Origin: Pseudonocardia sp. C8
Lineage (GTDB): Bacteria > Actinomycetota > Actinomycetes > Mycobacteriales > Pseudonocardiaceae
NCBI RefSeq assembly: GCF_014267175.1
Contig: NZ_JACMTR010000002.1
Coordinates: 694,001-758,000, forward strand
Direction of reading: 5' to 3'
Length of the DNA stretch: 64,000 nucleotides
A program made the position numbers and the translations under genes. Positions within the stretch are counted from its first letter, which is position 1; each line of letters starts with the position of its first letter. Shown in pieces: positions 13,016-43,034 of the stretch. The notes below the pieces were generated by a model that saw only the letters and a program-made list of their open reading frames with translations, did not search any database and was not told where the DNA came from.

Positions 13016-15142
13016 GTGGCGCCCGAGCAGGACCGGACCGCCACCCACTGCCCGTACTGCGCGCTGCAGTGCGGGCAGTGGGTGAGCCCGACCCGTGAGG
13101 TCGACGCCCGCGAGTTCCCGACCAACGCCGGGGGGATGTGCCAGAAGGGCTGGACCTCCTCTGCTCTGCTCACCCATCCGCACCGGCTGATGTCCCCGCT
13201 GGTCAGGGACTCGCGGGCGGACGGGTTCCGGGAGACCGACTGGGACACCGCGCTGGGCGGGGTCGCCGCGCGGCTGGCCGCGCTGCGTGCCGAGCACGGA
13301 CCGGATTCGGTCGCCGTCTTCGGCGCGGGCGGGCTGACCAACGAGAAGGCCTACCTGCTCGGCAAGTTCGCCCGGGTCGCGCTGGGCACCTCGCAGATCG
13401 ACTACAACGGCCGGTTCTGCATGTCCTCGGCGGCCGCCGCCGGGAACCGCGCGTTCGGGGTGGACCGCGGGCTGCCGTTCCCGGTGACCGACCTGGACTC
13501 GGCCGAGCTCGTCGTGCTCGCCGGCGCGAACGTCGCCGAGACGATGCCGCCGCTGATGGCGCACCTGACCACGGCGCGGCTCGTCGTGATCGACCCGCGG
13601 CGCACCCCGACCGCGGAGCGCGCGATCGCCTCCGGCGGCCTGCACCTGGCGCCGCGGCCGGGCACCGACCTGGCGCTGGCGCTGGGGATGCTGCACGTCG
13701 CCGTGGTCGAGGGGCTCCTGGACACCGCCTACCTGGACGACCGCACGACCGGGTTCGACGACGTCTGGCGGGTCGCGTCGCAGTGGTGGCCCGAACGCGC
13801 GGAGCGGGTCTGCGGTGTCGCCGCCTCCGACATGCGGACCGTGGTGCGCTGGCTGGCCCGGACCCGGCGGCGCTACGTCCTCACCGCGCGCGGTGCCGAG
13901 CAGCACGCGCACGGCGTCGACACGGTGTCGGCCTGGATCAACCTGTCACTGGCACTCGGCCTGCCGGGACGTGCCGGCTCCGGCTTCGGGACGATCACCG
14001 GGCAGGGCAACGGGCAGGGCGGGCGCGAGCACGGGCAGAAGTCCGACCAGCTGCCCGGCTACCGGCACATCACCGACCCGGCCGCGCGGGCGCACGTCGC
14101 CTCGGTGTGGGGCGTCCCCGAGGTGTCGCTGCCCGGGCCCGGCCGCAGCGCGGTCGAGCTGCTCGATGCGCTCGGCCGTCCCGGCGGGCCCCGGGCCCTG
14201 CTGGTGTTCGGCTCCAACGTGCTGGTCTCCGCCCCGGATGCGCGCGCCGTCGCCGACCGCCTGGACGCGCTGGACCTCCTGGTCGTCGCGGACGTCCTGC
14301 CCGGCGAGACGGCGTCGCGGGCCGACGTCGTGCTGCCGGTGGCCCAGTGGGCCGAGGAGGAGGGCACGATGACCAACCTGGAGGGCCGGGTGCTGCGCCG
14401 CCGCCGCGCACTGTCCCCGCCGCCGGGTGTCCGCACCGACCTCGAGGTGATCTCCGGGCTGGCTACGGCGCTGGACGCGCCGGGGGAGTTCCCGGCGGAC
14501 CCGGAGGCCGTGTTCGACGAGCTGCGCCGGGCCTCGTCCGGCGGGATCGCCGACTACACCGGCGTCACCTACCCCCGCCTGGACGCCGGTGAGGCACTGC
14601 ACTGGCCGTGCCCGGCCGAGGACCATCCGGGGACGCCGCGGCTGTTCACCGAGCGGTTCGCCCGTCCCGACGGCCGGGCCCGGATGGTGCCGGTGGACCA
14701 CGTCGAGCCGGACGAGGACGTCGACGCCTGCTTCCCGCTGCGCGTCACCACCGGGCGGGTCCTCGTGCACTACCAGTCCGGCGCGCAGACCCGCCGGGTC
14801 GCCGAGCTGGCGGACGCGTCCCCGGAGGTGTTCGTCGAGGTACACCCGGACACCGCGGCCCGGCACGGCCTCGCCGACGGCGACCTCGCCGACGTGACCT
14901 CCCGCCGCGGGACGACGACGGCGCGGGTCCGCTGCGTGCCCTCGCTGCGGCCGGACACGCTGTTCCTGCCGTTCCACTTCGGTGGCGCCGGTGCGGCGAA
15001 CAACGTCACGAACCCGGCGCTGGACCCGGTGAGCCGGATGCCGGAGTTCAAGGTTGCCGCGGTGCGGCTGGAGCCGGCCCGCGCCGATGCAGCCGTGCTC
15101 CCCGGAGGGCCGTCCCCGGCCGCGGCGACGAACTCCCGCTGA
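13016..15142 (+). CDS. Assimilatory nitrate reductase catalytic subunit (molybdopterin, 4Fe-4S)
   Basis: A 708-residue cytoplasmic molybdopterin oxidoreductase that reduces nitrate to nitrite. The N-terminal 4Fe-4S ligands are Cys12, Cys15, Cys19 (CPYCALQCG) and Cys42 (GMCQKGW). Further family blocks are YNGRFCMSSAAAAGNRAFG, the bis-MGD binding GQGNGQGGREHGQKSDQLPGYR, and a C-terminal molybdopterin dinucleotide-binding domain (FPLRVTTGRVLVHYQSGAQTRR). The length suits the Nas/NarB type rather than respiratory NarG (about 1200). It begins three bases after narK. Codons 49-53 use TCT GCT and contain one copy of the 25-bp motif described separately. Confidence 0.93.
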   Translation: MAPEQDRTATHCPYCALQCGQWVSPTREVDAREFPTNAGGMCQKGWTSSALLTHPHRLMSPLVRDSRADGFRETDWDTALGGVAARLAALRAEHGPDSVAVFGAGGLTNEKAYLLGKFARVALGTSQIDYNGRFCMSSAAAAGNRAFGVDRGLPFPVTDLDSAELVVLAGANVAETMPPLMAHLTTARLVVIDPRRTPTAERAIASGGLHLAPRPGTDLALALGMLHVAVVEGLLDTAYLDDRTTGFDDVWRVASQWWPERAERVCGVAASDMRTVVRWLARTRRRYVLTARGAEQHAHGVDTVSAWINLSLALGLPGRAGSGFGTITGQGNGQGGREHGQKSDQLPGYRHITDPAARAHVASVWGVPEVSLPGPGRSAVELLDALGRPGGPRALLVFGSNVLVSAPDARAVADRLDALDLLVVADVLPGETASRADVVLPVAQWAEEEGTMTNLEGRVLRRRRALSPPPGVRTDLEVISGLATALDAPGEFPADPEAVFDELRRASSGGIADYTGVTYPRLDAGEALHWPCPAEDHPGTPRLFTERFARPDGRARMVPVDHVEPDEDVDACFPLRVTTGRVLVHYQSGAQTRRVAELADASPEVFVEVHPDTAARHGLADGDLADVTSRRGTTTARVRCVPSLRPDTLFLPFHFGGAGAANNVTNPALDPVSRMPEFKVAAVRLEPARADAAVLPGGPSPAAATNSR
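13160..13184 (+). repeat. 25-bp composite motif, copy 1 (inside nitrate reductase)
   Basis: TCTGCTCTGCTCACC, then CATC, then CGCACC. It falls in frame as Ser-Ala-Leu-Leu-Thr and uses TCT and GCT codons. The same two blocks with the same four-base gap occur at 22634, 23031 (inverted) and 42126. Confidence 0.75.
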
Positions 15143-15173
15143 CCGGCCCGGACACACCCCACCGGACCCGCAG

Positions 15174-15235
15174 ACGCTCACCGAACCGGGCGTCGCTCAC
15201 GCGATCGCGCGAGCGACGCCCGGTTCCGTGAGCGT
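15174..15235 (+). terminator. Long hairpin after nitrate reductase
   Basis: Inverted repeat with 25-bp arms (15174-15198 and 15211-15235, one mismatch) around a 12-base loop that itself contains GCGATCGC. It probably ends the narK-nitrate reductase transcript. The first 14 bases, ACGCTCACCGAACC, recur in a hairpin near 57.6 kb, so this may belong to a dispersed repeat family used as terminators. Confidence 0.65.
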
Positions 15236-15336
15236 TCCCGGGCGCGCGTGTACCGAGCGGCCGGGGAGCGCGCCGCGACCGGCGTCACTGCCCAGTGCCC
15301 GTCTCACGGGTGCCGGGTGCCGAGAATGAGCGCCTT

Positions 15337-15373
15337 GTAACCGCCCTGTCATCGCGGGTCGCAGGTCCGTAAC
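15337..15373 (+). promoter_or_regulatory. Possible GlnR-like region before the nitrite reductase operon
   Basis: GTAAC at 15337-15341 and GTCAT at 15348-15352 are spaced 11 bp apart, and another GTAAC lies at 15369. This resembles the GTNAC half-site periodicity of GlnR boxes, but no GAAAC partner is clear. It is 25-60 bases upstream of the next gene. Confidence 0.3.
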
Positions 15374-15397
15374 GGCGCGTTCCTACCGTCGGTGGCC

Positions 15398-16828
15398 ATG
15401 AGCAGGCGTGTGGTGGTGATCGGGCACGGCATGGTCGGCTCCCGGTTCGCCGAGGAGATCCGGCGGCGCGACCCGGACGGCGAGCGGGTGACCCTGACCG
15501 TCCTCGGTGCCGAGCCGTTCCCGGCGTACAACCGGGTGCTGCTGTCCACCGTGCTCGCCGGTGGGTTGCGCCCCGGCATGGTCGCGCTCCCGGCGGTCGA
15601 CGGGGTCGAGGTGCACCTCGGGGTCGCCGCGACCGGGATCGACCGGGCGGCGCGCGTCGTGCACGGCGACGACGGCACCGCCCACCCCTACGACGAGCTC
15701 GTCCTCGCCACCGGTTGCCGCGCCTGGCTGCCGCCGATCGACGGCCTGGGCGACGACGGCGTCCCCGCACCCGGGGTGAGCCTGTTCCGCGACCTGGACG
15801 ACTGCGACCGCATCGGTGCCGCGGCCGTGCCCGGGGCCCGGATCGCCGTCGTCGGCGGCGGCCTGCTCGGTGTCGAGGCCGCGCGCGGGCTGACCGGCCG
15901 CGGTGTCGCCGTCACCCTCGTGCACCCGTGCATGCACCTCATGGAACGCCAGCTCGACATGGAGGCCGGTGACGTCCTGGCCGACGCGTTGCGCGGGCTC
16001 GGGGTCGACGTCCGGTGCGGGGTCGGCGCCAAGGCCTGGGACCCGGCCACCGGCCTGGACTGCGACGACGGCAGCCGGATCGCCGCGGACGCCGTCGTCG
16101 TCGCCGCGGGGGTCCGCGCGAACACCGAGCTCGCCGTGGCCGCCGGCCTCGCCGTCGGCGAGGGGATCCTCGTCGACGACCGCCTCGCCACCGACGACGG
16201 CCGCGTCCACGCGATCGGCGACTGCGCGCAGCACCCGCACGCCGCCGCCGGGCTGGTCCAGTCCGGCTGGGAGCAGGCCGCGGTGCTGGCCGACCTGCTC
16301 ACCGGGACCGACCCGGCGGCCCGCTACCGCGGGACCCGGCCGGTCACCCGGCTGAAGGCGACCGGTGTGGACCTGGCCGCGGTCGGGGACGTGGCGGCCG
16401 GCGACGAGCAGCTCCGGTTCTCCGACCCGCGGCGCGGTCGCTACGGGGTCCTCGCGTTGCGCGACGACCGCGTCGTCGGCGCCGTGCTGATGGGCCTGCC
16501 CGACGCCGCCGCGACCATCACGGGCCTCTACGACTCCGGCGCGCCCGCCCCGGAGGACCGGCTGGCGCTGCTGCTCGGCCGGGCCCTGCCCGGCGAGGCC
16601 ACGCCGGCCGCCGACCCGGTGCGCCTGCCCGGGTCCGCGATCGTCTGCCGCTGCAACAGCGTCACCAAGAACGCGCTGGTCACCGCGTGGCGCGCCGGCG
16701 CGACCGACGTCGACGCGCTGTCCCGCCGCACCCGCGCCGGCACCGGCTGTGGCGGCTGCCGGGACGCCGTCTGCGGGATCCGCGACTGGCTGGCAGAGGC
16801 CGACCCGCCGCAGGAGGACGCGGCATGA
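15398..16828 (+). CDS. FAD/NAD(P)-dependent oxidoreductase with C-terminal BFD 2Fe-2S domain
   Basis: A 476-residue Pyr_redox_2 flavoprotein (GHGMVGSRF near residue 10; second dinucleotide site VVGGGLLGVEAA; FAD motif AIGDCAQH). It ends in a bacterioferritin-associated-ferredoxin-like domain with ligands Cys417, Cys419, Cys451 and Cys454 (CRCN ... GTGCGGC). It resembles the N-terminal half of NirB and the electron-transfer subunit of assimilatory nitrate reductases, so it probably passes electrons from NAD(P)H to the nitrate reductase encoded just upstream. GTG 15392 is an alternative start. Its stop overlaps the upstream in-frame ATG of nirB, so the two are cotranscribed. Confidence 0.87.
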   Translation: MSRRVVVIGHGMVGSRFAEEIRRRDPDGERVTLTVLGAEPFPAYNRVLLSTVLAGGLRPGMVALPAVDGVEVHLGVAATGIDRAARVVHGDDGTAHPYDELVLATGCRAWLPPIDGLGDDGVPAPGVSLFRDLDDCDRIGAAAVPGARIAVVGGGLLGVEAARGLTGRGVAVTLVHPCMHLMERQLDMEAGDVLADALRGLGVDVRCGVGAKAWDPATGLDCDDGSRIAADAVVVAAGVRANTELAVAAGLAVGEGILVDDRLATDDGRVHAIGDCAQHPHAAAGLVQSGWEQAAVLADLLTGTDPAARYRGTRPVTRLKATGVDLAAVGDVAAGDEQLRFSDPRRGRYGVLALRDDRVVGAVLMGLPDAAATITGLYDSGAPAPEDRLALLLGRALPGEATPAADPVRLPGSAIVCRCNSVTKNALVTAWRAGATDVDALSRRTRAGTGCGGCRDAVCGIRDWLAEADPPQEDAA

Positions 16829-16839
16829 GAGGGGAGCAC

Positions 16840-19371
16840 ATGAACCGTCTGGTGGTGGTCGGGAACGGCATGGTCGGGCACCGGCTCGTGTCCGCGCTGC
16901 GCGACCGGGACCCGGCAGGCGAGTGGCGGATCACCGTCCTCGGCGAGGAGACCCGCCGGGCCTACGACCGGGTCGCGCTGTCGTCCTACGTGGACGGGCG
17001 CTCCGAGGAGGAGCTGCGGCTCGACGACGACGACCTGCACGGCGACCCGCTCGTCGACTACCACCTGGGCGACGCCGTCACCGGGATCGACCGGGACGCC
17101 CGCCGGGTGACGACCGCGTCCGGCCGCACCCTCGGCTACGACGCCCTGGTGCTCGCCACCGGCTCGTACCCGTTCGTCCCGCCGGTCGAGGGCCGGGACC
17201 TGCCCGGCTGCTTCGTCTACCGCACCCTCGACGACCTCGACGCGATCAAGGAGGCGGCCGCGGCGGCGGTCGCGACGACGGCGCCCGGCCGTCGCTCGGC
17301 GGTCGTCGTCGGCGGCGGGCTGCTCGGCCTGGAGGCGGCCCGCGCGATGCGGCTGCTGGGGCTGTCCCCGCAGGTCGTCGAGATCGCGCCGCGGCTGATG
17401 CCGGTCCAGGTCGACGAGGGCGGCGGGGCGCTGCTGCGCCGGCTGGTGACCGAGCAGGGCATCGCGGTGCGCACCGGGGTGTCGCTGACCGGGGTCGCCG
17501 ACGACCGCGGCCGGCTGGTCGCGACGCTGTCCGACGGCGTGGAGCTGGACGCCGACCTCGTCGTGTTCTCCGCCGGCATCCGGGCCGCCGACCAGCTGGC
17601 CCGGGCCTGCGACCTGCCGGTGGGGGAGCGGGGCGGGGTGCTGGTCGACGACCGCTGCCGCACCCCCGACGAGCACGTGTGGGCGATCGGGGAGTGCGCC
17701 GCCCTGGAGGGCCGGACCTACGGGCTGGTCGCGCCCGGGTACGCGATGGCCGAGGTCGTCGCCGACCGGTTGCTCGGCGGGCGGGCGCGGATGACCCCCG
17801 AGGAGCTGGACATGTCGACCCAGCTCAAGCTGCTGGGGGTCGACGTCGCCAGCTTCGGGGACGCGCACGCCTCCACCGAGGGCGCGCTGGAGATCGTCGT
17901 GAACGACCCGGTCGCCGGCACCTACTCGAAGCTGGTGGTGAGCGACGACGCGTCCACCCTGCTCGGCGGGGTGCTGGTCGGGGACGCGTCCCGGTACGGC
18001 TCGCTGCGGCCCCTGGTGGGCGCACCGCTCCCCGACGACCCGGTCACGCTCATCTCGAAGGGCGGCGCCGAGCCGGACGCGTCCGCGCTGCCGGACTCCG
18101 CGCAGATCTGCTCCTGCAACGCGGTCACCAAGGGCGACCTGTGCGCCGCGATCGACGGCGGTGCGCACGACGTGCCCGCGCTCAAGGCCTGCACCCGGGC
18201 CGGAACGACCTGCGGGTCCTGCGTCCCGGCCCTGAAACGGATCCTGGAGCAGCAGGGCGTGGAGGTGTCGACGGCGCTCTGCGAGCACTTCGACCGGCCC
18301 CGGGCCGAGCTGTTCGAGATCGTCGCGGGTGCGGGGATCACGTCGTTCTCCGCGCTGATCTCCCGGTACGGCCGCGGCACCGGCTGCGACATCTGCAAGC
18401 CGGCCGTCGCCTCGATCCTCGCCTCGCTGGGCAACGGGCACGTCCTCGACGGCGAGCAGGCCTCGCTGCAGGACACCAACGACCACTTCCTGGCGAACCT
18501 GCAGCGCAACGGCACCTACTCGGTGGTCCCGCGGATCCCGGGCGGCGAGGTCACCCCGGAGGGCCTGATCGTCATCGGCGAGGTCGCCCGGGACTTCGGG
18601 CTCTACACGAAGATCACCGGCGGGCAGCGGATCGACATGTTCGGCGCCCGGGTGGAGGACCTGCCTGCGATCTGGGCGCGCCTGGTCGACGCCGGGTTCG
18701 AGTCCGGGCACGCGTACGGCAAGTCGCTGCGCACGGTGAAGTCCTGTGTCGGGACGACCTGGTGCCGGTACGGGGTGCAGGACTCGGTCGGGATGGCCGT
18801 CGAGCTGGAGCTGCGGTACCGCGGGCTGCGGAGCCCGCACAAGCTCAAGGCCGGGGTGTCGGGGTGCGCCCGGGAGTGCGCGGAGGCCCGGTCCAAGGAC
18901 TTCGGGGTGATCGCGACCGAGACCGGGTGGAACCTCTACGTCGGCGGCAACGGCGGGTTCACCCCGAGGCACGCCGAGCTGCTGGTCTCCGACGTGGACT
19001 CGGCGACGCTGATCCGGACGATCGACCGGTTCCTCATGTTCTACGTCCGCACCGCCGACCGGCTCCAGCGCACCGCGCCGTGGATCGAGGCGATGGACGG
19101 CGGCCTCGACCACCTGCGGTCGGTGATCGTCGACGATGCGCTCGGCATCTGCGCCGAGCTGGATGCCGCGATGGCCCGGCACGTGGCGTCCTACACCGAC
19201 GAGTGGGCCGGGGTGCTGAACGACCCCGACAAGCTCGCCCGCTTCGTCTCGTTCGTCAACGCGCCGGGTGCGCCCGACCCGACCATCCGGTTCGTCGAGG
19301 AACGGGGACAGCAGGTCCCGGCCCCCGGCGAACCCGTGCTCATCGGACTCCCGGAGGTGGCCGCGCGATGA
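16840..19371 (+). CDS. nirB: Nitrite reductase [NAD(P)H] large subunit NirB
   Basis: An 843-residue siroheme/4Fe-4S nitrite reductase that reduces nitrite to ammonium in the cytoplasm. The order is: FAD/NAD(P)H module (VVGNGMVGHRLV, VVGGGLLGLEAA, AIGECAALEG), two BFD-type 2Fe-2S segments (CSCN ... TTCGSC and GTGCDIC), then the sulfite/nitrite reductase half-domains. Siroheme-cluster ligands are Cys636-x5-Cys642 and Cys676-x3-Cys680. ATG 16840 is preferred over ATG 16825 because AGGGGAG precedes it at good spacing. nirD follows with a four-base overlap. The siroheme it needs fits the chelatase and HemD-like genes downstream. Confidence 0.96.
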   Translation: MNRLVVVGNGMVGHRLVSALRDRDPAGEWRITVLGEETRRAYDRVALSSYVDGRSEEELRLDDDDLHGDPLVDYHLGDAVTGIDRDARRVTTASGRTLGYDALVLATGSYPFVPPVEGRDLPGCFVYRTLDDLDAIKEAAAAAVATTAPGRRSAVVVGGGLLGLEAARAMRLLGLSPQVVEIAPRLMPVQVDEGGGALLRRLVTEQGIAVRTGVSLTGVADDRGRLVATLSDGVELDADLVVFSAGIRAADQLARACDLPVGERGGVLVDDRCRTPDEHVWAIGECAALEGRTYGLVAPGYAMAEVVADRLLGGRARMTPEELDMSTQLKLLGVDVASFGDAHASTEGALEIVVNDPVAGTYSKLVVSDDASTLLGGVLVGDASRYGSLRPLVGAPLPDDPVTLISKGGAEPDASALPDSAQICSCNAVTKGDLCAAIDGGAHDVPALKACTRAGTTCGSCVPALKRILEQQGVEVSTALCEHFDRPRAELFEIVAGAGITSFSALISRYGRGTGCDICKPAVASILASLGNGHVLDGEQASLQDTNDHFLANLQRNGTYSVVPRIPGGEVTPEGLIVIGEVARDFGLYTKITGGQRIDMFGARVEDLPAIWARLVDAGFESGHAYGKSLRTVKSCVGTTWCRYGVQDSVGMAVELELRYRGLRSPHKLKAGVSGCARECAEARSKDFGVIATETGWNLYVGGNGGFTPRHAELLVSDVDSATLIRTIDRFLMFYVRTADRLQRTAPWIEAMDGGLDHLRSVIVDDALGICAELDAAMARHVASYTDEWAGVLNDPDKLARFVSFVNAPGAPDPTIRFVEERGQQVPAPGEPVLIGLPEVAAR

Positions 19372-19763
19372 CCGCCCGGCTCGACACGTCCGTCATGGCA
19401 GGAGCCCCCACCACGCCCGCCGCCGCCGGCGAGGACCCGGCCGGCTGGCTGACCGTCTGCCCGGTCGAGGCGCTGCTGCCCGGCCGCGGCGCCGCGGCGC
19501 TGGTCGGCGACGTGCAGGTGGCGTTGTTCCGGCTCGCCGACGGCGCGCTGCACGCGGTCGGCAACATCGACCCGTTCACCGGCGCCGGCGTCATCTCCCG
19601 GGGCCTGGTCGGCGACCGGGCCGGGGAGCCGACCGTCGCGTCGCCGATCCACAAGCAGGTGTTCGCGTTGCGCGACGGCCGCTGCCTCGACGACGACGGT
19701 GTGAGCCTGCCCGCGTTCGCCGTGCGGGCCGTGGGCGGGAACGTCCAGGTCGGGCTACGGTGA
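19368..19763 (+). CDS. nirD: Nitrite reductase small subunit NirD
   Basis: A 131-residue Rieske-fold protein (WLTVCPVEALLPGRGAAALV at the start; VASPIHKQVFALRDGRCLDD at the end) that lacks the Cys-His cluster ligands of true Rieske proteins, as expected for NirD. It completes the NAD(P)H nitrite reductase with NirB. ATG 19368 overlaps the nirB stop (ATGA), implying translational coupling. Confidence 0.94.
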   Translation: MTARLDTSVMAGAPTTPAAAGEDPAGWLTVCPVEALLPGRGAAALVGDVQVALFRLADGALHAVGNIDPFTGAGVISRGLVGDRAGEPTVASPIHKQVFALRDGRCLDDDGVSLPAFAVRAVGGNVQVGLR

Positions 19764-19822
19764 AGGTGGTCCCCGCCGCCGAGCGCGGCCGTCGGCGACC
19801 GACCGCCAGGAACGGAGGACCG

Positions 19823-21767: not shown

Positions 21768-23039
21768 ATGGCCCCTCCGGGGCTGGTGGACCGGCTGCGG
21801 GCCGCCGGCTGCGTGTTCGCCGAGGACGAGGCCGCGCTGCTCGCCGCGGCCGCCACCGGTGCCGCGCTCGACGATCTGGTCCGGCGCCGGGTCGCGGGCG
21901 AGCCACTCGAGCACCTGCTCGGCCGGGTCGCGTTCGACGGGCGCACGGTCCGGGTGACGCCGGGGGTGTTCGTCCCGCGCCGCCGCTCCGAGGCGCTCGT
22001 GCACGCCGCCGTCGCGCTGCTGCGCCCCGGCGCGGTGGTCGTGGACCTGTGCTGCGGGTGCGGGGCGCTCGGCCTCGCCGTCGCCCGCCGCGTGCCGGTG
22101 GAGCTGCACGCCGCGGACGTCGACCCGGCCGCCACCGACTGCGCCGCGACCAACCTCGCCGGTGTCGGCACGGTGCACACCGGTGATCTGTTCGACGCAC
22201 TGCCGGCGTCGCTGCGCGGCCGGGTCGACGTGCTCGTCGCGAACACGCCGTACGTGCCGGCGGCCGCGATCGCGGACATGCCCCCGGAGGCCCGCTGCCA
22301 CGAACCGCGGACCGCCCTCGACGGCGGCGCCGACGGCCTCGACCCCGCCCGCCGGGTCGCCGCCGGCGCGCCGCGCTGGCTGGCACCCGGCGGGACCGTG
22401 CTGATCGAGACCGGTGCGTCCCAGGCCCCCGTGCTCGCGGCGGTGCTCGCCGGGCACGGGCTCGCCCCGACGACCGGGAGCGACGACGAGCGCGCCGCGA
22501 CCTGGGTCGCGGCTCGCCCCGACGACCGGGAGCGACGACGAGCGCGCCGCGACCTGGGTCGCGGGCCGCGCACCGCGCTGAACTGCAGATTCCCGGCCAC
22601 GGGCGGCGCGGGACAGGGGGCGTCCGGCGTCTGTTTGCTCTGCTCACCGTGGCGCACCACCCCCCGTATCGGCATCCGGGCGTCTCGGCCGCCGGGGCGG
22701 GGCGCAGGTCGAGTTGCACGCTTCCGCCCCGCTCGCGGCGGGATCGTGCCGATGATGTGCGGGGCGTCCGTCGATCAGCACCGTGTCGCCCGTGTCGGGG
22801 CGGAAACGTGCGTGCCGGCGCGGGCCCGGGGGTCGATCAGCACGCTTCTGCCGTCGCTGGGGCGTATGCGTGCGTACCGGCAGCCGGCTCGACATCGATC
22901 AGCACGTTCTCGTCGTCGGTGCGACCCGAGCGTGCCTGTCGGTTCGGGACCGGGAGTCGACCAACACGTTCTCGCCGTCGGCGGGGCGGGATCGTGCCTA
23001 CCGATGATCGAGGGCGCCGATCGCACCCCCGGTGCGTAG
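21768..23039 (+). CDS. PrmC-related N5-glutamine methyltransferase, C-terminus frameshifted by a duplication
   Basis: Residues 1 to about 248 form an intact SAM methyltransferase of the PrmC/HemK-related group (TIGR03704 type): an RVAGEPLEHLLG N-terminal helix, VVDLCCGCGALGLAVA for SAM, and NTPYVP in place of NPPY. A perfect 52-bp tandem duplication (22459-22510 and 22511-22562) shifts the frame after TWVA. Without it the gene would end GRAPR-stop at 22579-22581. As it stands the frame runs on through a repeat array to TAG 23037, adding about 175 residues of non-conserved, Arg-rich sequence. The fold may survive, but the tail is almost certainly not selected. GTG 21744 is an alternative start. 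Confidence 0.75.
   Translation: MAPPGLVDRLRAAGCVFAEDEAALLAAAATGAALDDLVRRRVAGEPLEHLLGRVAFDGRTVRVTPGVFVPRRRSEALVHAAVALLRPGAVVVDLCCGCGALGLAVARRVPVELHAADVDPAATDCAATNLAGVGTVHTGDLFDALPASLRGRVDVLVANTPYVPAAAIADMPPEARCHEPRTALDGGADGLDPARRVAAGAPRWLAPGGTVLIETGASQAPVLAAVLAGHGLAPTTGSDDERAATWVAARPDDRERRRARRDLGRGPRTALNCRFPATGGAGQGASGVCLLCSPWRTTPRIGIRASRPPGRGAGRVARFRPARGGIVPMMCGASVDQHRVARVGAETCVPARARGSISTLLPSLGRMRAYRQPARHRSARSRRRCDPSVPVGSGPGVDQHVLAVGGAGSCLPMIEGADRTPGA
22459..22562 (+). repeat. Perfect 52-bp tandem duplication in a methyltransferase gene
   Basis: Units 22459-22510 and 22511-22562 are identical. The length is not a multiple of three, so the second unit shifts the reading frame of the PrmC-like gene. 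Perfect identity suggests a recent event or an assembly duplication. Confidence 0.9.
22634..22658 (+). repeat. 25-bp composite motif, copy 2 (left bound of repeat array)
   Basis: TTTGCTCTGCTCACC, then GTGG, then CGCACC. It is the inverted partner of 23031-23055, so together they look like terminal inverted repeats of a 422-bp element. Confidence 0.75.
22708..23017 (+). repeat. Five degenerate tandem repeats with an exact 62-bp period
   Basis: Units begin at 22708, 22770, 22832, 22894 and 22956, each exactly 62 bp long. The first part is best conserved (GTCGATCAGCACG, then TTCTCGCCGTCG), and CGTGC recurs at about position 38-42, complementary to the GCACG near the start, so each unit could form a stem. 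The remainder drifts. Since 62 is not a multiple of three, no single protein repeat is encoded. The array is bounded by inverted copies of the 25-bp motif. Too divergent for CRISPR; closest in style to mycobacterial MIRU-type arrays. Confidence 0.75.
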
Positions 23040-23055
23040 AGGTGAGCAGAGCAAA
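23031..23055 (-). repeat. 25-bp composite motif, copy 3 (right bound of repeat array, inverted)
   Basis: Read on the minus strand: TTTGCTCTGCTCACC, then TCTA, then CGCACC. It pairs with 22634-22658 across the 62-bp repeat array. The stop codon of the extended methyltransferase frame lies in its four-base gap. Confidence 0.75.
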
Positions 23056-35990: not shown

Positions 35991-36174
35991 CTCTGCCTCC
36001 TTGCATCTCCCGCGCGCGGTCTCGGGGTGCGCCCAGGAAAGTTGCTCGTCGCCGCGGGCGGAACCCAACAGACGGTCACGATTCGGACAGTGAGGCCGGT
36101 GGCCGACGATCGGCGGGTGGATCACGTCAGGACACGACGAACGGTCTTGACAACGGCCGTACTACCTCACTCGG
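35991..36174. other. Intergenic region upstream of the DUF485-actP pair
   Basis: Leader and presumed promoter of the DUF485-symporter pair on the minus strand, with AAGGAGG just before the start. No convincing -35/-10 pair or palindromic operator could be identified. The LytTR regulator encoded at 38.3 kb could act here, but no LytTR-type direct repeats are obvious. Confidence 0.35.
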
Positions 36175-37839
36175 TTACTCACGATCCGCCAGATGGAGCC
36201 GCAGCATCGTATCCTCCGCCGCGGACGGAACGTGATCGACCAGTGACATGACGATCATGACGAGGAATGCCAGCGGGACCGACCACAGTGCCGGTCGGGT
36301 GAGCAGCATGCCGACCGTTCCGCCGAGCCCCAGCGCGGTGTTCAGTCCCATGGCTCCCACCGAACAGACCAGCCCGGCGACCATGCCGGCGCCCGCGCCG
36401 CGGGCCGTCAGCCGGCTCCACCACAGGCCCAGGACCAGCAGCGGGCAGAACGTCGACGCCGCGACGGTGAACGCCGACGTGACCGCGGCGCTGACGTCCA
36501 CCCGCACCATCAGCAGCGCCGCCGGGAGCACGGCCACCGACGCGGCCAGCGCGGTGAGCCGGAGCCGGCGCAGCCCGGACGGCATGAGGTCGTGCGCGAG
36601 CGCCCCGGACAGCGCCAGGAGCAGGCCGAGCGAGGTGGCCAGGAACGCGGCGAACGCCCCCGCGGTGAGCAGGGCGGTGAGCACGGCCGCCGTCCCGCCG
36701 CCGGTGACCCGGCCGGGCAGCGTGACAACCGCGGTGTCGGTGCCCTGGGACAGGTAGAGCTCCGGGGTGAGCACCGTCCCGAGCAGGCCGTAGACGATCG
36801 TGAACAGGTAGAAGGTGCCCAGCAGCGCGACGGTGATCGCCGCCGTGCGGCGCGCGCTGCGACCGTCCGGGCTGGTGTGGAACCGGACGATGATGTGCGG
36901 CAGCCCCATCGTGCCGAGCGCGGTGGCGACGAGCACCGACCAGGTCGCCAGCAGCGGCGTCGAGTTCGCCGTGCCGAGCAGCGGCAGCGCCCAGTCCGCG
37001 CCGCCGGGCACCGGCAGCGACGCCCCGCCGCCGAGATCGGGCACCGCGGCGCCCCGGGGGAACAGCCAGACCTGGTCCGCGCGGGCCCGGTGCGGCCCGG
37101 GGGCCAGCTCGGCGGGCACACCGTCGATCGCGACGGCGGTCGGTTCGGTGAGCACCAGCTCGGTGTCGAGCCGGAAGTCGACCGGTGTCTCCCGGGCGAA
37201 GTGGGTGAACTCGGGCGGCGCGACCAGCTCGGCGCGCAGCGACGGCCCGGCGAGCAGCAGCAGCCAGATCGCCGGTCCGGCGAACAGCAGCAGCTTGAGC
37301 GCGAACTGGAACGCCTGGACGTAGGTGGCCGCCCGCATCCCGCCGAGGGCGAGCGTGACGCCGACGGCCAGCCCGGACACGACGACGCCCACCCAGTAGT
37401 CCACACCGGACACCAGGGTGAGCAGCTGGCCGGCCGCGACGATCTGCGGGACCAGGTAGAGCCCCGCGATCACCACGACGACGACCGCGCAGAACCGGCG
37501 CAGCGCCCGCGACCCCAGCCGGGCCTCGGCGAAACCGGGCACGGTCAGCGCCCCGCTGCGCCGCATCGGGGCCGCCACCAGGGCCAGCATCAGCAGGTAC
37601 CCCGCGGTGAACCCGACCGGGTACCAGAGCGCCCCGGTGCCCTCCTTGATCACCAGGCCCGCGACGCCGAGGAACGAGGCCGCCGACAGGTACTCCCCGG
37701 AGACGGCGGCGGCGTTGAGCATCGGCGAGGTCCGCCGGGAGGCGACCAGGAAGTCCGACGTGGTGCGCATCGCGGCGACGCCGCGGGCCCCGATCAGCAC
37801 GGTGACCAGGACCAGCGCGACGACGGCGGCGCCGGTCAC
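36175..37839 (-). CDS. Second sodium/solute symporter, paralog of the ActP-like protein
   Basis: A 554-residue SSS transporter with the same landmarks as its neighbour: TTSDFLVASRRTSPMLNAAAVSGEYLSAASFLG, a GTMGLPHIIVRFHTSPDGRSARRT segment, and FTVAASTFCPLLVLGLWWSRL. A roughly 90-residue hydrophilic insert (about residues 175-265) lies between transmembrane helices. GTG 37839 overlaps the stop of the small membrane protein upstream. It is the last gene of a four-gene operon with a LytS/LytTR two-component system, so its transcription or substrate is probably linked to that signal. The substrate is unknown. Confidence 0.87.
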   Translation of the reverse strand: MTGAAVVALVLVTVLIGARGVAAMRTTSDFLVASRRTSPMLNAAAVSGEYLSAASFLGVAGLVIKEGTGALWYPVGFTAGYLLMLALVAAPMRRSGALTVPGFAEARLGSRALRRFCAVVVVVIAGLYLVPQIVAAGQLLTLVSGVDYWVGVVVSGLAVGVTLALGGMRAATYVQAFQFALKLLLFAGPAIWLLLLAGPSLRAELVAPPEFTHFARETPVDFRLDTELVLTEPTAVAIDGVPAELAPGPHRARADQVWLFPRGAAVPDLGGGASLPVPGGADWALPLLGTANSTPLLATWSVLVATALGTMGLPHIIVRFHTSPDGRSARRTAAITVALLGTFYLFTIVYGLLGTVLTPELYLSQGTDTAVVTLPGRVTGGGTAAVLTALLTAGAFAAFLATSLGLLLALSGALAHDLMPSGLRRLRLTALAASVAVLPAALLMVRVDVSAAVTSAFTVAASTFCPLLVLGLWWSRLTARGAGAGMVAGLVCSVGAMGLNTALGLGGTVGMLLTRPALWSVPLAFLVMIVMSLVDHVPSAAEDTMLRLHLADRE

Positions 37840-38309
37840 GGTGCGGGTGCCGGGAGCCCACCCGGCCCGTCGCCCGGCCGCTCGTCCTGCCCGGCCGGCG
37901 CCGCCCGCCCGTTCCGCCGGACGGGCGTCCCGCGGTCCTCCCGCGCGGTCCGGGCCGCCCGGTCGTCCCGCTCCACCCGCTCGGCCCCGCGCAGGTGCCA
38001 CCACGCCAGCCCGGCCAGCAGCGGGTACGGCACCCAGGCCACCAGGATCCAGCCCAGCGGCAGCCCGCCCACCCGCCACCCGGTGAGCCCCGGGACCGCG
38101 TGCAGCAGCACCGGCAGGCCGAGCAGCAGCACCGCACCGCAGGTCAGGGTGACCGCCACCCGGCGCAGCTGGGCCCGGCGGATCGTGCGGGCCTGCGCGG
38201 CACGCCCCGGTTCGAGCACCGGCTCCGGCACCGGACGCGCGCCCGGCGTGCGGGAGCGGCCGCCGGGCTCCGGCGGCGCGGTCACGGCGACCCGGCGCGG
38301 GCGGTTCAC
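37836..38309 (-). CDS. Small two-TM protein in DUF485 position
   Basis: A 157-residue protein with basic ends and two hydrophobic helices (about 53-70 and 80-100; VALTLTCGAVLLLGLPVLLH-like and LGWILVAWVPYPLLAGLAWW). It sits where DUF485 proteins sit before SSS transporters, overlapping both neighbours by four bases (GTGA). The sequence has diverged from typical DUF485, so membership is inferred from position and topology. Confidence 0.65.
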   Translation of the reverse strand: MNRPRRVAVTAPPEPGGRSRTPGARPVPEPVLEPGRAAQARTIRRAQLRRVAVTLTCGAVLLLGLPVLLHAVPGLTGWRVGGLPLGWILVAWVPYPLLAGLAWWHLRGAERVERDDRAARTAREDRGTPVRRNGRAAPAGQDERPGDGPGGLPAPAP

Positions 38310-39136
38310 GAGCGGCCCCGCCCCCGGCCCGCGCCGCCCGGGTCGCCGAGGGCGCCGGACGTCGCCGCAGCCAGCAGCTGGTCGCGCAGGTCGCGGGCGT
38401 GCCGGCGGCTGACCGGGACGTCACCGGCGTCGGTGTGGGCGAGCAGGCCGCCCCCGGCGTCGCTGCGCAGCTCCCGCACCGCCGGCAGGTGCACCAGGAA
38501 GCTGCGGTGCACCCGGACGAACCGGTGCGCGGCCCAGTGCTCCTCCAGCCGGGACAGCGGGATGCGGACCAGGTGCGAGCCGGTCGGGGTGTGCAGCCGG
38601 ACGTAGTCGCCATGGGCCTCGGCGAACCGGACGTCCTCGCGGCGGACGTAGCGGGTCCGCCCGGCGAGCTCCACCGGCAGCACCCCGAGCTCGTCGACCC
38701 GGGGGACGGGCGGCGCGGTCTCGCCCACCGGTGCGGGCGCGGCCGCGCTCGCGGTGCGGCCGGCGCGGGCCCGGTGCACTCGGGCCAGCGCGTCGGCCAG
38801 CCGGTCGGCGCCGACCGGCTTGAGCAGGTAGTCGACCGCGCCCAGGCCGTAGGCGGCGACGGCGTGCTCCTCGAACGCGGTCACGAACACGATCTCCGGC
38901 GGCTCTGCCATCGCCGCCAGGACACCGCCCAGCTCGAGACCGTCCATCCCGGGCATCGTGATGTCGAGGAACACCGCGTCGAACCCGCCGGCCGGGATGG
39001 CGCGCAGCGCCTCGACGGCGTCGCCGGCCCGGGCGACCGCGCCCACGTCCGGGGCGTCGGCGAGCAGCGCGCAGAGCTCGTCGAGGGCGGGGGCGACGTC
39101 GTCGACCGCCAGGACGCGCAGCGGGGCGGGGGTCAT
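38306..39136 (-). CDS. LytTR-family response regulator
   Basis: A 276-residue regulator. The receiver domain is at 1-120 (AVDDVAPALDEL, phospho-acceptor Asp in VFLDITMPGMDG, VTAFEEHAV, DYLLKPV). The LytTR DNA-binding domain is at about 165-260 (RTRYVRREDVRFAEAHGDYVRLHT; FVRVHRSFLVHLPAVREL). It is translationally coupled to the histidine kinase (ATGA) and to the small membrane protein downstream. It likely regulates one or both SSS transporter units. Confidence 0.9.
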   Translation of the reverse strand: MTPAPLRVLAVDDVAPALDELCALLADAPDVGAVARAGDAVEALRAIPAGGFDAVFLDITMPGMDGLELGGVLAAMAEPPEIVFVTAFEEHAVAAYGLGAVDYLLKPVGADRLADALARVHRARAGRTASAAAPAPVGETAPPVPRVDELGVLPVELAGRTRYVRREDVRFAEAHGDYVRLHTPTGSHLVRIPLSRLEEHWAAHRFVRVHRSFLVHLPAVRELRSDAGGGLLAHTDAGDVPVSRRHARDLRDQLLAAATSGALGDPGGAGRGRGRS

Positions 39137-40239
39137 GCGAGCACCCCCGGCTGGAAGCGCGGGATCCGCAGCACGATCCGGGTGCCCGCGCCCGGTGCGG
39201 TCTCGATGACCAGGCCGTGTTCCGGGCCGTACACCGCACGCAACCGCCGGTCGACGTTCACCAGCGCCAGCCCGGCGCCCTCGGCCGTGCCGGCCAGCAC
39301 CGCGCGGGCGTGCTCCGGGGACATGCCCGGTCCGTCGTCGTCGACCGCGATCACGCAGACGTCGCCCTCGGCTTCCCCACTGACCTGCACCAGCCCCCCG
39401 TCCGCGGTCCGCTCGACCCCGTGCTGCACGGCGTTCTCCACGAGCGGCTGCAGCGCCAGCACCGGCACCGGCACCGGCAGCACCTCGGGTGCCACCCGGA
39501 CCTGCACGCGCAGCCGGTCGCCGAGCACGGCGCGGGCCAGCGTCAGGTAGGCCTCGACCGACCGGAACTCGCCGGCCAGCGACGTGTAGTCGCCCCGGGC
39601 CGCGAGCGAGTGCCGGATGAACTCGGCGAACGTCTCCAGCAGGTCCCGGGCCCGCGCGGGATCGGAGCGCACGAAGGACGCGATCGTGGTGAGCGCGTTG
39701 TAGACGAAGTGCGGCGAGATCTGGGCACGCAGCTCGCGCAGGCGGGCGGTCTCGGCCTCGGCGGCACCGTCCTCCAGCCGGGCCCGCTCGAGCGCGTCGG
39801 CGGTGAACCCGGCGATCCGGCGGGCCGCGGCGAGCGGGACACCACCGAGCACCAGCACCGGGGACTCCGGCCCGGGGTCGGCGCCCAGCGGGAGCGCCAC
39901 CAGGTCCCCCTCGGCCCGCCGCCTGCCACACGCACGCAGGCCGAGCGCGATGCCCTCGTCCCGGTCCGCACCCCACCACGTCGCCGGGAAACCGGGCTGC
40001 AGCAGGCCGGCGGCGTCGGCGCCGCACAGCCCGGCGAGCCGGCGCAGGGCCTCCACGGCGGCCGGCGACCCGGCCGGTTCGCGCAGCCCCTCGGCGACCG
40101 CGACCCCGGCCTCGAGGACCTCCGCCGGGCCGGTGGGGGCGGCCACCGGTGACCGGAACCGGCCGGTCAGCCGGGGGCGCAGCGAGGTGCGGGAGCCGGA
40201 CGCGCGCGCACGACGTTCGGGGTCCTCCTCGGCCGGCAC
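39133..40239 (-). CDS. LytS-type sensor histidine kinase with GAF-like domain
   Basis: A 368-residue kinase without transmembrane segments. The first 150 residues look GAF-like (VEALRRLAGLCGADAAGLLQPG). The His_kinase block LRAQISPHFVYNALTTIASFVRSDP carries the phospho-accepting His, and the HATPase domain follows (LQPLVENAVQHG, DDGPGMSPE, GAGLALVNVDRRL). Lack of the LytS membrane domain suggests a cytoplasmic signal, perhaps a carboxylate or redox cue tied to the transporter. GTG 40239 gives a compact protein. Confidence 0.87.
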   Translation of the reverse strand: MPAEEDPERRARASGSRTSLRPRLTGRFRSPVAAPTGPAEVLEAGVAVAEGLREPAGSPAAVEALRRLAGLCGADAAGLLQPGFPATWWGADRDEGIALGLRACGRRRAEGDLVALPLGADPGPESPVLVLGGVPLAAARRIAGFTADALERARLEDGAAEAETARLRELRAQISPHFVYNALTTIASFVRSDPARARDLLETFAEFIRHSLAARGDYTSLAGEFRSVEAYLTLARAVLGDRLRVQVRVAPEVLPVPVPVLALQPLVENAVQHGVERTADGGLVQVSGEAEGDVCVIAVDDDGPGMSPEHARAVLAGTAEGAGLALVNVDRRLRAVYGPEHGLVIETAPGAGTRIVLRIPRFQPGVLA

Positions 40240-40299
40240 CTGGTCAGGATAGGGCCCGAGGCGCCCGTCCCGCGGCCCGTGGGCGTTAGCCTGCCGCAC

Positions 40300-41355
40300 G
40301 TGATCCGCTCCTCCCGCCTTGCCGCCCACGACCTCCAGGTCGCGGGTGCGCTGCGGATGCCCGACGCGCCGTCGAGCCCGGTCCGCTCCCTGACGGTCCG
40401 GCTGCTGATCGCGGTGTTCGCGCTCGCGACGACGACGATGATCGTCTACTTCGGGCGGGACGGCTACCTGGACAACAACGGCGCCGGCGAGATCTCGCTG
40501 CTCGACGCGCTGTACTACGCCACCGTGTCGCTGTCGACGACCGGTTACGGCGACATCGTCCCGGTCAGCACGACGGCCCGGACGATCAACATCGCCGTGA
40601 TCACCCCGCTGCGGGTGCTGTTCCTGATCGTTCTCGTCGGGACGACCGTCGAGCTGCTCACCGAGCGCTCCCGGCAGGCGTTCCGGACCCAGCGCTGGAG
40701 GTCGCGCGTGCGCGAGCACACCGTCGTCGTCGGATACGGCACCAAGGGCCGGGCCGCGGTGGAGACCCTGCTGGGCGACGGCGTCGAGCCGGAGAAGATC
40801 GTCGTGGTGGACACCGACCGGTCGCGGCTCGACGTCGCGTCCGGGATGGGCCTGGTGACCGTCTCCGGCAACGCGACCCGGTCGGCCGTGCTGCGGATCG
40901 CCGGGGTGCAGCAGGCGACGACGCTGATCGTCGCCCTGGACCGGGACGACACCGCCGTGCTGGTGACGCTGACCGCGCGCGAGCAGTCCCGGACGGTCTC
41001 GATCATCGCCGCGGTCCGCGAGGCGGAGAACGTGCACCTGCTGCGGCAGTCCGGCGCGAGCTCGGTGATCGTCTCCGACGAGACGGCGGGCCGGCTGCTC
41101 GGCGTGGCGACGCGGTCCCCGGCCGTCGTCGAGGTGATGGAGGACCTGCTCACCCCGGACGCCGGGTTCGCCATCACCCAGCGCCCGGTCGAGCCGGCCG
41201 AGGTGGGCGGTTCGCCGCGGCACCTGCCCGACATCGTGCTGGGCGTGGTCCGGGGCGACAAGCTCTACCGGGTCGACTCGCCGGCGGTGGACGCCCTCGA
41301 ACGCGGCGACCAGCTGCTCTACGTGCGGAAGGCCACACCGCCCGACGAACCGTGA
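40300..41355 (+). CDS. Potassium channel with TrkA-N (RCK) domain, Rv3200c-like
   Basis: A 351-residue two-TM ion channel. TM1 is at about 32-52, the pore helix and selectivity filter are STTGYGDIVP at about 79-88, and TM2 is at about 95-115. A Rossmann RCK/TrkA-N domain follows (HTVVVGYGTKGRAAVETLL; VVVDTDRSRLDVASGMGLVTVSGNA) with a C-terminal ligand domain. It conducts K+ under nucleotide or ion control. GTG 40300 was preferred over GTG 40279. It corresponds to Rv3200c, which in mycobacteria follows adnB directly; here block C intervenes. Confidence 0.9.
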   Translation: MIRSSRLAAHDLQVAGALRMPDAPSSPVRSLTVRLLIAVFALATTTMIVYFGRDGYLDNNGAGEISLLDALYYATVSLSTTGYGDIVPVSTTARTINIAVITPLRVLFLIVLVGTTVELLTERSRQAFRTQRWRSRVREHTVVVGYGTKGRAAVETLLGDGVEPEKIVVVDTDRSRLDVASGMGLVTVSGNATRSAVLRIAGVQQATTLIVALDRDDTAVLVTLTAREQSRTVSIIAAVREAENVHLLRQSGASSVIVSDETAGRLLGVATRSPAVVEVMEDLLTPDAGFAITQRPVEPAEVGGSPRHLPDIVLGVVRGDKLYRVDSPAVDALERGDQLLYVRKATPPDEP

Positions 41356-41363
41356 GCATCGTC

Positions 41364-41386
41364 TTGACCTGAAGTCAGCTCCAGGT
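41364..41386 (+). promoter_or_regulatory. MerR-type operator before the split transketolase
   Basis: TTGACC (41364-41369) overlaps a 20-bp imperfect palindrome, ACCTGAAGTCAGCTCCAGGT (41367-41386), 15 bases before the ATG at 41401. This layout, a dyad between a TTGACC -35 and a distant -10, is typical of MerR-family (SoxR-like) promoters. No merR gene lies in the window. Confidence 0.5.
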
Positions 41387-41400
41387 CGCACGGTGGTCGC

Positions 41401-42120
41401 ATGACTCCTTCCACCACACATCCGCCGGCGACCACCGGCACCGGGTACGCCGCGCTGCCCCGGCTGATGGCCCGGATGACCGGCGACGAGAAGCACGAAC
41501 CCGCGGCGACGTCCACCCTGGACGTCCTGTGGGTCCTCCACGACCGGGTCCTGCGCGTCGACCCCGCGCACGCCGACGACCCGGACCGCGACCGGCTCCT
41601 GGTCTCGAAGGGGCACGGCCCGATGGCGCTCTACGCCGTCCTGGCCGCGAAGGGCTTCCTCGACCCGGGCGCCCTCGACGGGTTCGCGGGGTTCGGATCG
41701 AGCCTCGGGCAGCACCCGGACCGCACGCTGGTCCCGGGCGTCGAGATCTCGTCCGGCTCGCTCGGGCACGGCCTCGGGCTCGCCGTCGGGACCGCACTCG
41801 GGCTGCGGCTCGCAGCCCGCCCGGCACGCACCGTCGTCCTGCTCGGCGACGCCGAGCTCGACGAGGGCTCCAACGCCGAGGCGATCCAGTACGCCGGCCG
41901 GGCCCGGCTCGACCGGCTCACCGCCGTCGTGATCGACAACGCGTCGGCGTCGCACGGCTGGCCCGGCGGGATCGCCGCCCGGTTCGCCGTCGAGGGGTGG
42001 GCGACCGTCGACACCGACGGCCGTGACCACGACGAGCTGTACCGCGCGTTCACCGCACCGCACGAGGGCCGCCCGCTGGCCGTCGTCGCCCACGTCGAGC
42101 CGAAGGGGAGCCCCCGATGA
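41401..42120 (+). CDS. Transketolase N-terminal (ThDP-binding) subunit
   Basis: A 239-residue protein equal to the pyrophosphate-binding half of transketolase: RLLVSKGHGPMALYAVLAAKGF, SGSLGHGLGLAVGTALG, and the ThDP/Mg motif as LGDAELDEGSNAEAIQYAGRARLDRLTAVVIDN. It should pair with the next gene to form a split transketolase-like enzyme. A MerR-like dyad lies in its promoter. Sugar substrates are not determinable from sequence. Confidence 0.87.
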   Translation: MTPSTTHPPATTGTGYAALPRLMARMTGDEKHEPAATSTLDVLWVLHDRVLRVDPAHADDPDRDRLLVSKGHGPMALYAVLAAKGFLDPGALDGFAGFGSSLGQHPDRTLVPGVEISSGSLGHGLGLAVGTALGLRLAARPARTVVLLGDAELDEGSNAEAIQYAGRARLDRLTAVVIDNASASHGWPGGIAARFAVEGWATVDTDGRDHDELYRAFTAPHEGRPLAVVAHVEPKGSPR

Positions 42121-43034
42121 CCGTGTCTGCTCTGCTCACCGCCACGCACCGCCCCGCTGACCAGCGGGAACGCTTCTACCAGCTGCTGCCGGAGCTGCTC
42201 GCGTCCGACCCGCGGGCGGTCGCGCTGCTCGCCGACATCGGCGCCGGCTACGTCGACCTGCCGGACGCCGTCGCCGACCGGGTGATCAACCTCGGTATCC
42301 GCGAGCAGCTGCTCGTCTCCGCGGCGGGCGGGCTCGCGCTCACCGGGATGCGCCCGGTCGTGCACACGTTCGCGCCGTTCCTCGTCGAGCGGCCCTACGA
42401 GCAGCTCAAGCTCGACCTCGGCCACCAGGACGTGGGCGCGCTGCTGGTGTCCGCGGGCGCGTCCTACGACATGGCAGCCGCGGGGGAGACCCACTTCGGC
42501 TCCCGCGACGTCGCCCTGCTCGACACCCTCGACGGCTGGACCGTGCACACGCCCGGGCACGCCGACGAGGCCGAGGCGCAGCTCCGGTCCGCGCTGCCCG
42601 GCGACGACCGGGTCTACGTCCGGCTCTCCGGCGCCTCCAACGCGGTCCCGCACGGCACCGGTCCCGGCATGGCGGTGCTGCGGCGCGGGAGCCGGGGCAC
42701 GGTCGTCGCCGTGGGCCCGCTCGCCGACCGGACCCTCACCGCGGTCTCCGACCTCGACGTCACGGTGCTCTACGCGCCGACGGTCCGCCCGTTCGACGCC
42801 GCCACCCTGCGGGCGACCCTGACCGCACCGGACGTCGTGCTGGTCGAGCCCTACCTGGCCGGCACCTCGGTGCCGCACGCGACCGCGGCGCTGTCCGGGG
42901 TGCGGCACCGGGTGCTGGGGCTCGGGGTCGGGCACGCGGAGCTGCGCCGCTACGGCCGGCCGGCAGACCACGACGCCGCGCACGGCCTGGACGTCGCCGG
43001 GATCCGGCGGTCGGTGCGCGAGTTCCTCTCGTAG
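42117..43034 (+). CDS. Transketolase C-terminal subunit
   Basis: A 305-residue protein containing the Pyr domain (RAVALLADIGAGYVDLPDAVADRVINLGIREQLLVSAAGGLALTGMRPVVHTFAPF, with the Glu of NLGIREQ that activates ThDP) and the C-terminal transketolase domain. It overlaps its partner by four bases (ATGA). Codons 4-8 carry one copy of the 25-bp motif, with TCT GCT codons. Confidence 0.87.
   Translation: MTVSALLTATHRPADQRERFYQLLPELLASDPRAVALLADIGAGYVDLPDAVADRVINLGIREQLLVSAAGGLALTGMRPVVHTFAPFLVERPYEQLKLDLGHQDVGALLVSAGASYDMAAAGETHFGSRDVALLDTLDGWTVHTPGHADEAEAQLRSALPGDDRVYVRLSGASNAVPHGTGPGMAVLRRGSRGTVVAVGPLADRTLTAVSDLDVTVLYAPTVRPFDAATLRATLTAPDVVLVEPYLAGTSVPHATAALSGVRHRVLGLGVGHAELRRYGRPADHDAAHGLDVAGIRRSVREFLS
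42126..42150 (+). repeat. 25-bp composite motif, copy 4 (inside transketolase subunit)
   Basis: TCTGCTCTGCTCACC, then GCCA, then CGCACC, beginning nine bases after the start codon of the C-terminal transketolase subunit. It is in frame as Ser-Ala-Leu-Leu-Thr, with the same five codons as copy 1. Confidence 0.75.

Follow-up and report, generated by a model that had tools for sequence, protein, structure and literature searches.

Dispersed copies of an asymmetric 25-bp DNA word and a candidate XRE repressor in Pseudonocardia and related actinobacteria

Why does one 25-bp DNA word occur four times, twice inside unrelated genes, within a single stretch of an actinobacterial chromosome? The stretch (hereafter the window) comprises 64,000 nucleotides of Pseudonocardia sp. 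C8, positions 694,001 to 758,000 of contig NZ_JACMTR010000002.1, and a first-pass annotation made from its letters had offered four possible roles for the word, as a protein-binding site, a chromosome-organisation signal, a recombination site or a small-RNA target. The explanation that we favour, with a probability of about 0.57, is that the copies are the dispersed asymmetric sites of an autoregulated repressor of the XRE (Cro/C1-type) class, likely blocking transcription in a stoperator-like manner on the host chromosome. Among the four roles a protein-binding site fitted best, with binding suggested by sites at the promoter of the XRE gene, by clustering and by the arrangement of sites as facing pairs.

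The 25-bp word in the window, the genome and beyond

The features concerned were as follows, with positions counted in the window except for the XRE gene, which is given on its contig (C2); genomes and loci are cited below by handles beginning with G and L.

13160..13184, + strand: single site copy inside a nitrate-reductase-type molybdopterin oxidoreductase gene, codons TCT GCT CTG CTC ACC CAT CCG CAC C
22634..22658, + strand: site copy, left arm of an inverted (facing) pair between a HemK-like methyltransferase gene and an MGMT-like gene
23031..23055, - strand: site copy, right arm of the HemK/MGMT facing pair, TTTG ends outward
42126..42150, + strand: single site copy at the start of a transketolase pyrimidine-domain gene, Met-Thr-Val-Ser-Ala-Leu-Leu-Thr
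C2:647769-648473, strand n/a: XRE (Cro/C1-type) regulator gene, 45 kb left of the window, within the site cluster and near its left end

All four copies were found at the coordinates and on the strands first reported, with 0 mismatches to TYTGCTCTGCTCACCNNNNCGCACC. They read as TYTGCTCTGCTCACC-N4-CGCACC and share 20 of 25 positions, as had been described, and no fifth copy was present in the window at ≤3 mismatches, the chance expectation being 0.01 copies (mean of 100 shuffles). Equally correct were the placement of the 22634 and 23031 copies as an inverted pair around a repeat array, and the rarity of T-ending codons, which amounted to 3.1% in the frame of the 13160 copy and 1.6% in that of the 42126 copy, making TCT GCT unusual. 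The consensus held only in part: the motif itself stood, whereas its fixed CTC proved to be local, the constraint across species being approximately TTTGCTCTG-NNN-ACC-NNNN-CGCANC. Pfam searches, which covered the listed window proteins and the XRE protein, identified the hosts of the 13160 and 42126 copies as a molybdopterin oxidoreductase and a transketolase pyrimidine-binding-domain protein, respectively.

The source genome (two contigs, 6.24 Mb) held 21 matches at ≤3 mismatches, against 0 for a reversed-pattern control. The exact core TGCTCTGCTCACC occurred 15 times, with 12 of the 15 lying in C2:642266-736140, a 94-kb segment of the 6.1-Mb contig, and the right part of this cluster falls within the window. 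Among 60 genomes of the genus, at least one match (≤2 mismatches) was found in 25 and at least four in 18, the reversed control giving 0 throughout; for a looser pattern, applied to eight genomes, that control gave 0 in six and 1 each in G001 and G042. Ten tabulated genomes carried 8 to 34 matches each of one asymmetric word. Exact matches sought in 84,980 species genomes made up 83 stretches, with Pseudonocardia, Micromonospora or Actinoplanes accounting for 74 among the 80 listed, and the one exact pattern searched in viral contigs gave 0 matches there. The suspicion that the genome might hold no more copies than expected was thus not borne out, the word being clustered and genus-wide, with 21 copies to the control's 0. 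Chance or codon usage as the source of the repeats is ruled out by that count, by the 0.01 copies expected in the window and by the differences among orthologs given below; we regard it as vanishingly improbable.

The in-gene copies bear on whether the DNA or the encoded peptide is under selection. For the nitrate reductase (NasA), 43 matches were obtained, and 30 of them gave loci that entered a codon-level comparison. The motif was carried by seven of the 30, from seven clade genomes, with the codons (TCT, GCT or GGC)-(GCT or GCA)-CTG-CTC-(ACC, one GCC); the other 23 orthologs, which include those of G047 and G059 that carry the motif elsewhere, had no GCT in the second codon and no ACC in the fifth, in a gapless alignment. 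The residues had shifted with the DNA, being His or Gln in motif genomes versus Glu or Asp in most others. By this gapless alignment, the NasA motif arose through substitution of bases. The transketolase gene carried the word at its start, exactly or nearly so, in seven of 15 loci (that of the window and those of G002, G026, G037, G042, G046 and G053); the word was not seen in the other eight, including G041, whose gene starts align poorly and one not at all. The residues beneath the kept word varied between SALLT, FALHT and FALLT. Selection on the nucleic acid rather than the protein, as first proposed, is therefore upheld: orthologs outside the clade differ in codons and residues, the NasA motif is confined to the clade, made by substitution and accompanied by changing residues, and a protein-only constraint is disfavoured because the transketolase word stays while its residues change.

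The places of the sites were also conserved between species. Site places common to G000, G026, G053 and G043 were a GNAT-type gene, the XRE-dapE gap, the AEC-gabT gap, the nitrate reductase gene and the HemK-MGMT gap (the names dapE, hemB, gabT, AEC transporter, CobN and MarR are those that we presume from the protein sequences). The transketolase-start site was common to G000, G026 and G053 by position and was also seen in G002. At the HemK-MGMT junction a facing pair was present in G026 and G053, one copy in G043 and two direct copies in G037. Spacers inside pairs were mostly unalignable by eye and the sites persisted, although the HemK-MGMT spacers of G000 and G026 have a hairpin unit in common.

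The array enclosed by that pair in the window (22700-23005) is made up of imperfect hairpins, GATCAGCACGTTCTCGCCGTCG..., which resemble sequence in the AEC-gabT gap. Its unit had 38 genome matches at ≤3 mismatches (reversed control 1), and we take it to be a family separate from the 25-bp word, because several of these matches are spaced by 62-bp multiples and lie far from the motif. A 52-bp tandem duplication at 22461-22564 puts the end of the HemK-like gene out of frame, and the HemK-like open reading frame (ORF) thereby runs as far as 23037, crossing the first site of the pair.

The XRE regulator gene and its promoter sites

The near-clade genome G041 keeps the gene order of the region and has a shorter AEC-gabT gap, no sites and no XRE gene. 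The XRE gene was picked as the candidate partner of the word because this siteless genome lacks the small gene that adjoins the dapE pair elsewhere.

Evidence for this partnership that is stronger than counts of orthologs came from promoters. Analysed were 37 XRE loci, one per genome, comprising 20 of Pseudonocardia, not picked by motif, and 17 from other genera. The first 1 kb upstream of XRE held an exact TTTGCTCTG in 31 of the 37 (14/20 Pseudonocardia, 17/17 others), on both strands and facing in 28, and the first 1 kb downstream did so in 0/37. Inverted repeats sought without knowledge of the word, at 22 or more of 25 positions, were found upstream in 20 of the 37 loci and downstream in none. 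These orthologs with upstream sites span Pseudonocardia, Micromonospora and Actinoplanes, and a common neighbourhood does not explain the promoter sites, because XRE adjoins a dapE-like gene in Pseudonocardia and different genes in Micromonospora.

The six XRE loci without an exact TTTGCTCTG had altered words, namely a one-base variant, TCTGCTCTG, in G053 and a changed "dialect" in five, where the promoter carried facing repeats of ATGGCTCTGCGTGGAAATA (G012), ACCGCTCTGCTTACC (G023), TTTGCAGTGCACACC (G035), TTTGCCATGCACACC (G036) or TTTGCAGTGNCAGCG (G050). The XRE promoter of G028 had tandem TTTGCTCTGCCCGC copies, and G039, in which the XRE gene looks broken, had a single promoter copy. In the 200 kb around the XRE gene of G012, its own word occurred at three places including the promoter (five copies, ≤4 mismatches), of which the two non-promoter places lay within 100 kb and one was a facing pair; the canonical word and the reversed control both gave 0 in the same 200 kb. 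At L310, from Actinoplanes subtropicus, units of the GCTCTGCGCAC type are repeated in tandem over a long stretch upstream of the XRE gene.

XRE orthologs were found in 20 of the 60 genus genomes, being present in 14 of 18 genomes with at least four motif hits versus 6 of 42 others (Fisher p 4e-6, uncorrected for kinship). A strong ortholog (E 2.6e-68 to 1.7e-63) was also found in 17 of 18 genomes from other genera, a figure that is by itself no proof of association, these genomes having been chosen by motif and having no motif-free control set. Neither a genome search nor the syntenic interval yielded an XRE gene in G046, where, for six sites paired with those of G026, five fitted the consensus worse and one equally; the sample is small, and G046 may have a dialect of its own.

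Seven of ten genomes also showed a concentration of sites near the XRE gene. This count took the matches of the looser pattern, or in G043, G047 and G059 those at ≤2 mismatches; one contig was used per genome, leaving out off-contig matches (4/22 in G001, 1/35 in G043), sites within 1.5 kb were merged, the promoter pair was left out and the limit was set at 150 kb from XRE. Within that limit lay 6/6 loci in G002, 6/6 in G026, 10/11 in G037, 5/9 in G000, 8/21 in G043, 4/9 in G001 and 3/6 in G042, with the XRE gene near the middle of the site cluster in G002, G026 and G037.

The encoded protein has 235 residues and an HTH_3 domain, that is a helix-turn-helix (HTH), at 41.9 bits against a cut-off of 23, the N-terminal HTH being modelled with high confidence. 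Its C-terminal region is conserved as RRYPSHLDTILDP-x-GEWWGDRYGLARPPETF and matched no family in Pfam, PADLOC or NCBIfam, and sequence searches of PADLOC, NCBIfam and PDB matched the HTH only, with no match above the NCBIfam cut-off. Foldseek, run on the structure model, returned HipB and restriction-modification control proteins by the HTH only (best E 1.2e-3, none below 0.001). The biology of those fold neighbours is similar in the HTH_3 fold and in likely autoregulation through paired sites; it differs in that C-proteins and HipB use few operators at their own promoter, unlike the 8 to 34 matches found here in each of ten genomes.

Geometry and placement of the sites

Counting sites within 250 bp of each other at 85 loci, we obtained 40 facing neighbours (TTTG outward), 21 tandem ones and 0 back-to-back, so that inverted neighbours were always facing (40/40). 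The two arms of a pair agreed at 0.95 for constant positions and 0.75 for variable ones, the latter against 0.67 when arms were shuffled within a genome (0/2000 shuffles reaching the real value), and flanks prolonged the palindrome by 2.1 bases against 1.6 in shuffled flanks (1/2000). Pairing of the arms thus contributes a little, but conservation lies mostly in the invariant blocks.

These measurements bear on the idea that the pairs are RNA hairpins, acting as terminators or processing signals and having no protein of their own. Facing pairs could form long stems and lie at convergent gene ends, and the greater arm agreement within pairs than between them and the slight lengthening by flanks point the same way; however, variable positions often differ within pairs, single in-gene copies cannot pair, some spacers run to hundreds of bases and no Rfam family was found at the sites (8 loci and the window), so that we consider it very improbable. 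A small-RNA target is likewise unlikely, fitting poorly with facing pairs, tandem arrays and sites on both strands.

The strict polarity, 40 to 0, is also what would be expected of a small mobile repeat that resembles MITEs or the REPINs of REPIN/RAYT systems (PMC3116915) and ends in 25-bp inverted repeats, for which the XRE gene would be a mere neighbour or would help to mobilise it. In favour are a spacing typical of the lineage (in G001, for example, arm starts lie 65-66 bp apart), the shorter and pairless AEC-gabT gap of G041, and Actinoplanes subtropicus (L099, L112, L115), where the pair belongs to a repeat of 171-180 bp with three copies that are 97-99% identical and look mobile. The sites also resemble REPIN/RAYT systems in being short facing-pair repeats with a variable spacer and one associated gene. 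That gene is here, in contrast, an XRE regulator, and the Y1 transposase (Y1_Tnp) was absent from all 12 motif-rich genomes tested, the 4 of 32 genomes overall that had it (G003, G008, G014, G019) all having 0 motif hits. Further points against mobility are the NasA copy, which involves no insertion, the commonness of single and tandem copies, and two wide pairs, 0.8 and 1.3 kb apart, in which no transposase ORF was recognised on reading by eye. A role in recombination or as a mobile repeat is weakened accordingly and appears improbable, Actinoplanes subtropicus being the one lineage that looks mobile.

The pairs of G001 (P. endophytica) at L041, L065, L282 and L066 had near-constant spacing, mostly 65-66 bp between arm starts, with spacers unrelated in sequence and left and right arms that often differ. 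A facing pair near a gene that we take to be radical-SAM-like was common to P. oceani and P. hydrocarbonoxydans (L136 versus L067), and in P. hydrocarbonoxydans, with no XRE detected, the right arm was weaker at this locus.

Placement was counted for 80 of the 83 exact-scan stretches, leaving out L085, L092 and L142 as chance-like, and with a crude gene caller; 14 of 92 clusters lay at locus edges and were dropped. Of the remaining 78, 49 were intergenic against 16.6 expected, and 20 lay at convergent junctions against 3.4 expected. Convergent junctions were favoured even among gaps (20/49, where they make up 21% of the gap bases; p 0.001), which argues against a chromosome-domain organiser. 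Under that reading the XRE protein would nucleate or anchor a domain of 100-250 kb round its gene, in the manner of ParB/parS or MatP/matS, with gene-end sites merely the least harmful. Concentration of sites around XRE in seven of the ten genomes, and sites kept in genes at a cost in residues, support such a role, and where copies cluster near the gene of the likely binding protein, some of them in genes, they are like those of ParABS and MatP-matS. Here, unlike in those systems, the site is asymmetric and often paired and the protein is XRE-type; the word also changes fast between species, unlike what is known of parS, and pairs are spread over the chromosome in three genomes. We therefore find an organiser doubtful.

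As for a common target gene, 289 ORFs near sites fell into 38 groups, with no more than 4 species labels each among the 25 groups listed. CobN-like, MarR-like and ABC-ATPase groups and some two-member groups spanned genera, and a weak common target is conceivable because several groups do so. A MarR-like ORF was seen 1.8 to 2.7 kb from sites in Micromonospora and Pseudonocardia (L119, L122, L124, L129).

A proposed repressor with dispersed sites on a host chromosome

The favoured explanation, an autoregulated XRE repressor with dispersed sites, would work as follows. The XRE protein would bind the 25-bp chromosomal sites directly and would repress its own gene through the upstream pair, whereas facing pairs at gene ends would halt transcription, presumably by stopping RNA polymerase from both sides. 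The protein would likely read three blocks (TTTGCTCTG, ACC and CGCACC), which follow one another turn by turn along one face of the DNA, a reading with which a copy at L056 agrees, having a tandem 10-bp expansion of ACCGATACGC.

Several observations weigh against this explanation. XRE proteins are usually dimers on palindromes, and the middle of the present protein was modelled poorly (predicted local distance difference test, pLDDT, about 50). Motif-rich genomes without an XRE hit were found (G005, G006, which is 72% complete, G046 and G051), as were XRE genomes with 0 or 1 canonical hit (G012, G023, G028, G035, G036, G050), and Catellatospora, one of the 18 other-genus genomes, had no XRE ortholog. 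Clustering around XRE was absent in three of the ten genomes (1/8 loci in G047, 0/6 in G056, 1/8 in G059), and within 200 kb G036 carried its own word only at the promoter. By the crude gene caller, 29 of the 78 clusters lay inside predicted genes. Only 25 of the 37 promoters held a repeat, sought without knowledge of the word, that outdid the best of 20 shuffles, and the promoter pair of Pseudonocardia also faces dapE, which could be the target instead.

The nearest working model for the proposed repressor appears to be that of L5-type phages. According to PMC9283540, the L5-type repressor binds asymmetric sites as a monomer, with its HTH and a second domain in successive grooves, and acts at promoters and at intergenic stoperators, where it halts elongation in an orientation-dependent manner; the stoperator word varies with the repressor among relatives, as PMC6550527 describes. 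As described in these two sources, mycobacteriophage L5 stoperators resemble the present sites in having a single repressor with an HTH, about 20-30 asymmetric sites dispersed over narrow gaps between genes and the region upstream of that repressor's gene, and a word that varies with the repressor between relatives. The differences are a phage genome instead of a host chromosome, a 13-bp instead of a 25-bp site and a function in immunity, which the present sites are not known to have, with facing pairs and some in-gene sites found here; the likeness is drawn from features of the sites and their arrangement. The features examined here agree with a stoperator system except for carriage by a temperate phage, which does not fit, the sites lying in a region of the same gene order across several species.

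In the open literature searched, TTTGCTCTGCTCACC gave no match, two 11-mers of the motif gave, among the matches listed, unrelated titles, and no comparable system was found among the matches listed. Dispersed repressor sites that stop elongation have been described so far in phages, namely mycobacteriophages.

A broader proposal, which is possible and which we put forward tentatively, is an actinobacterial chromosomal stoperator network, in which facing, asymmetric 25-bp barriers at gene ends and in genes would extend over 100-250 kb around the XRE gene or, in other species, over the whole chromosome, with regulator and word changing together fast and giving rise to lineage dialects. If true, this would mean a host chromosome that stops elongation genome-wide with a fast-changing word, and it would link termination, genome neighbourhood and the co-evolution of a regulator with its sites. 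The natural dialects of many species could then be used to test how a protein changes along with the word it targets, and a family of unnamed XRE proteins would gain a predicted target.

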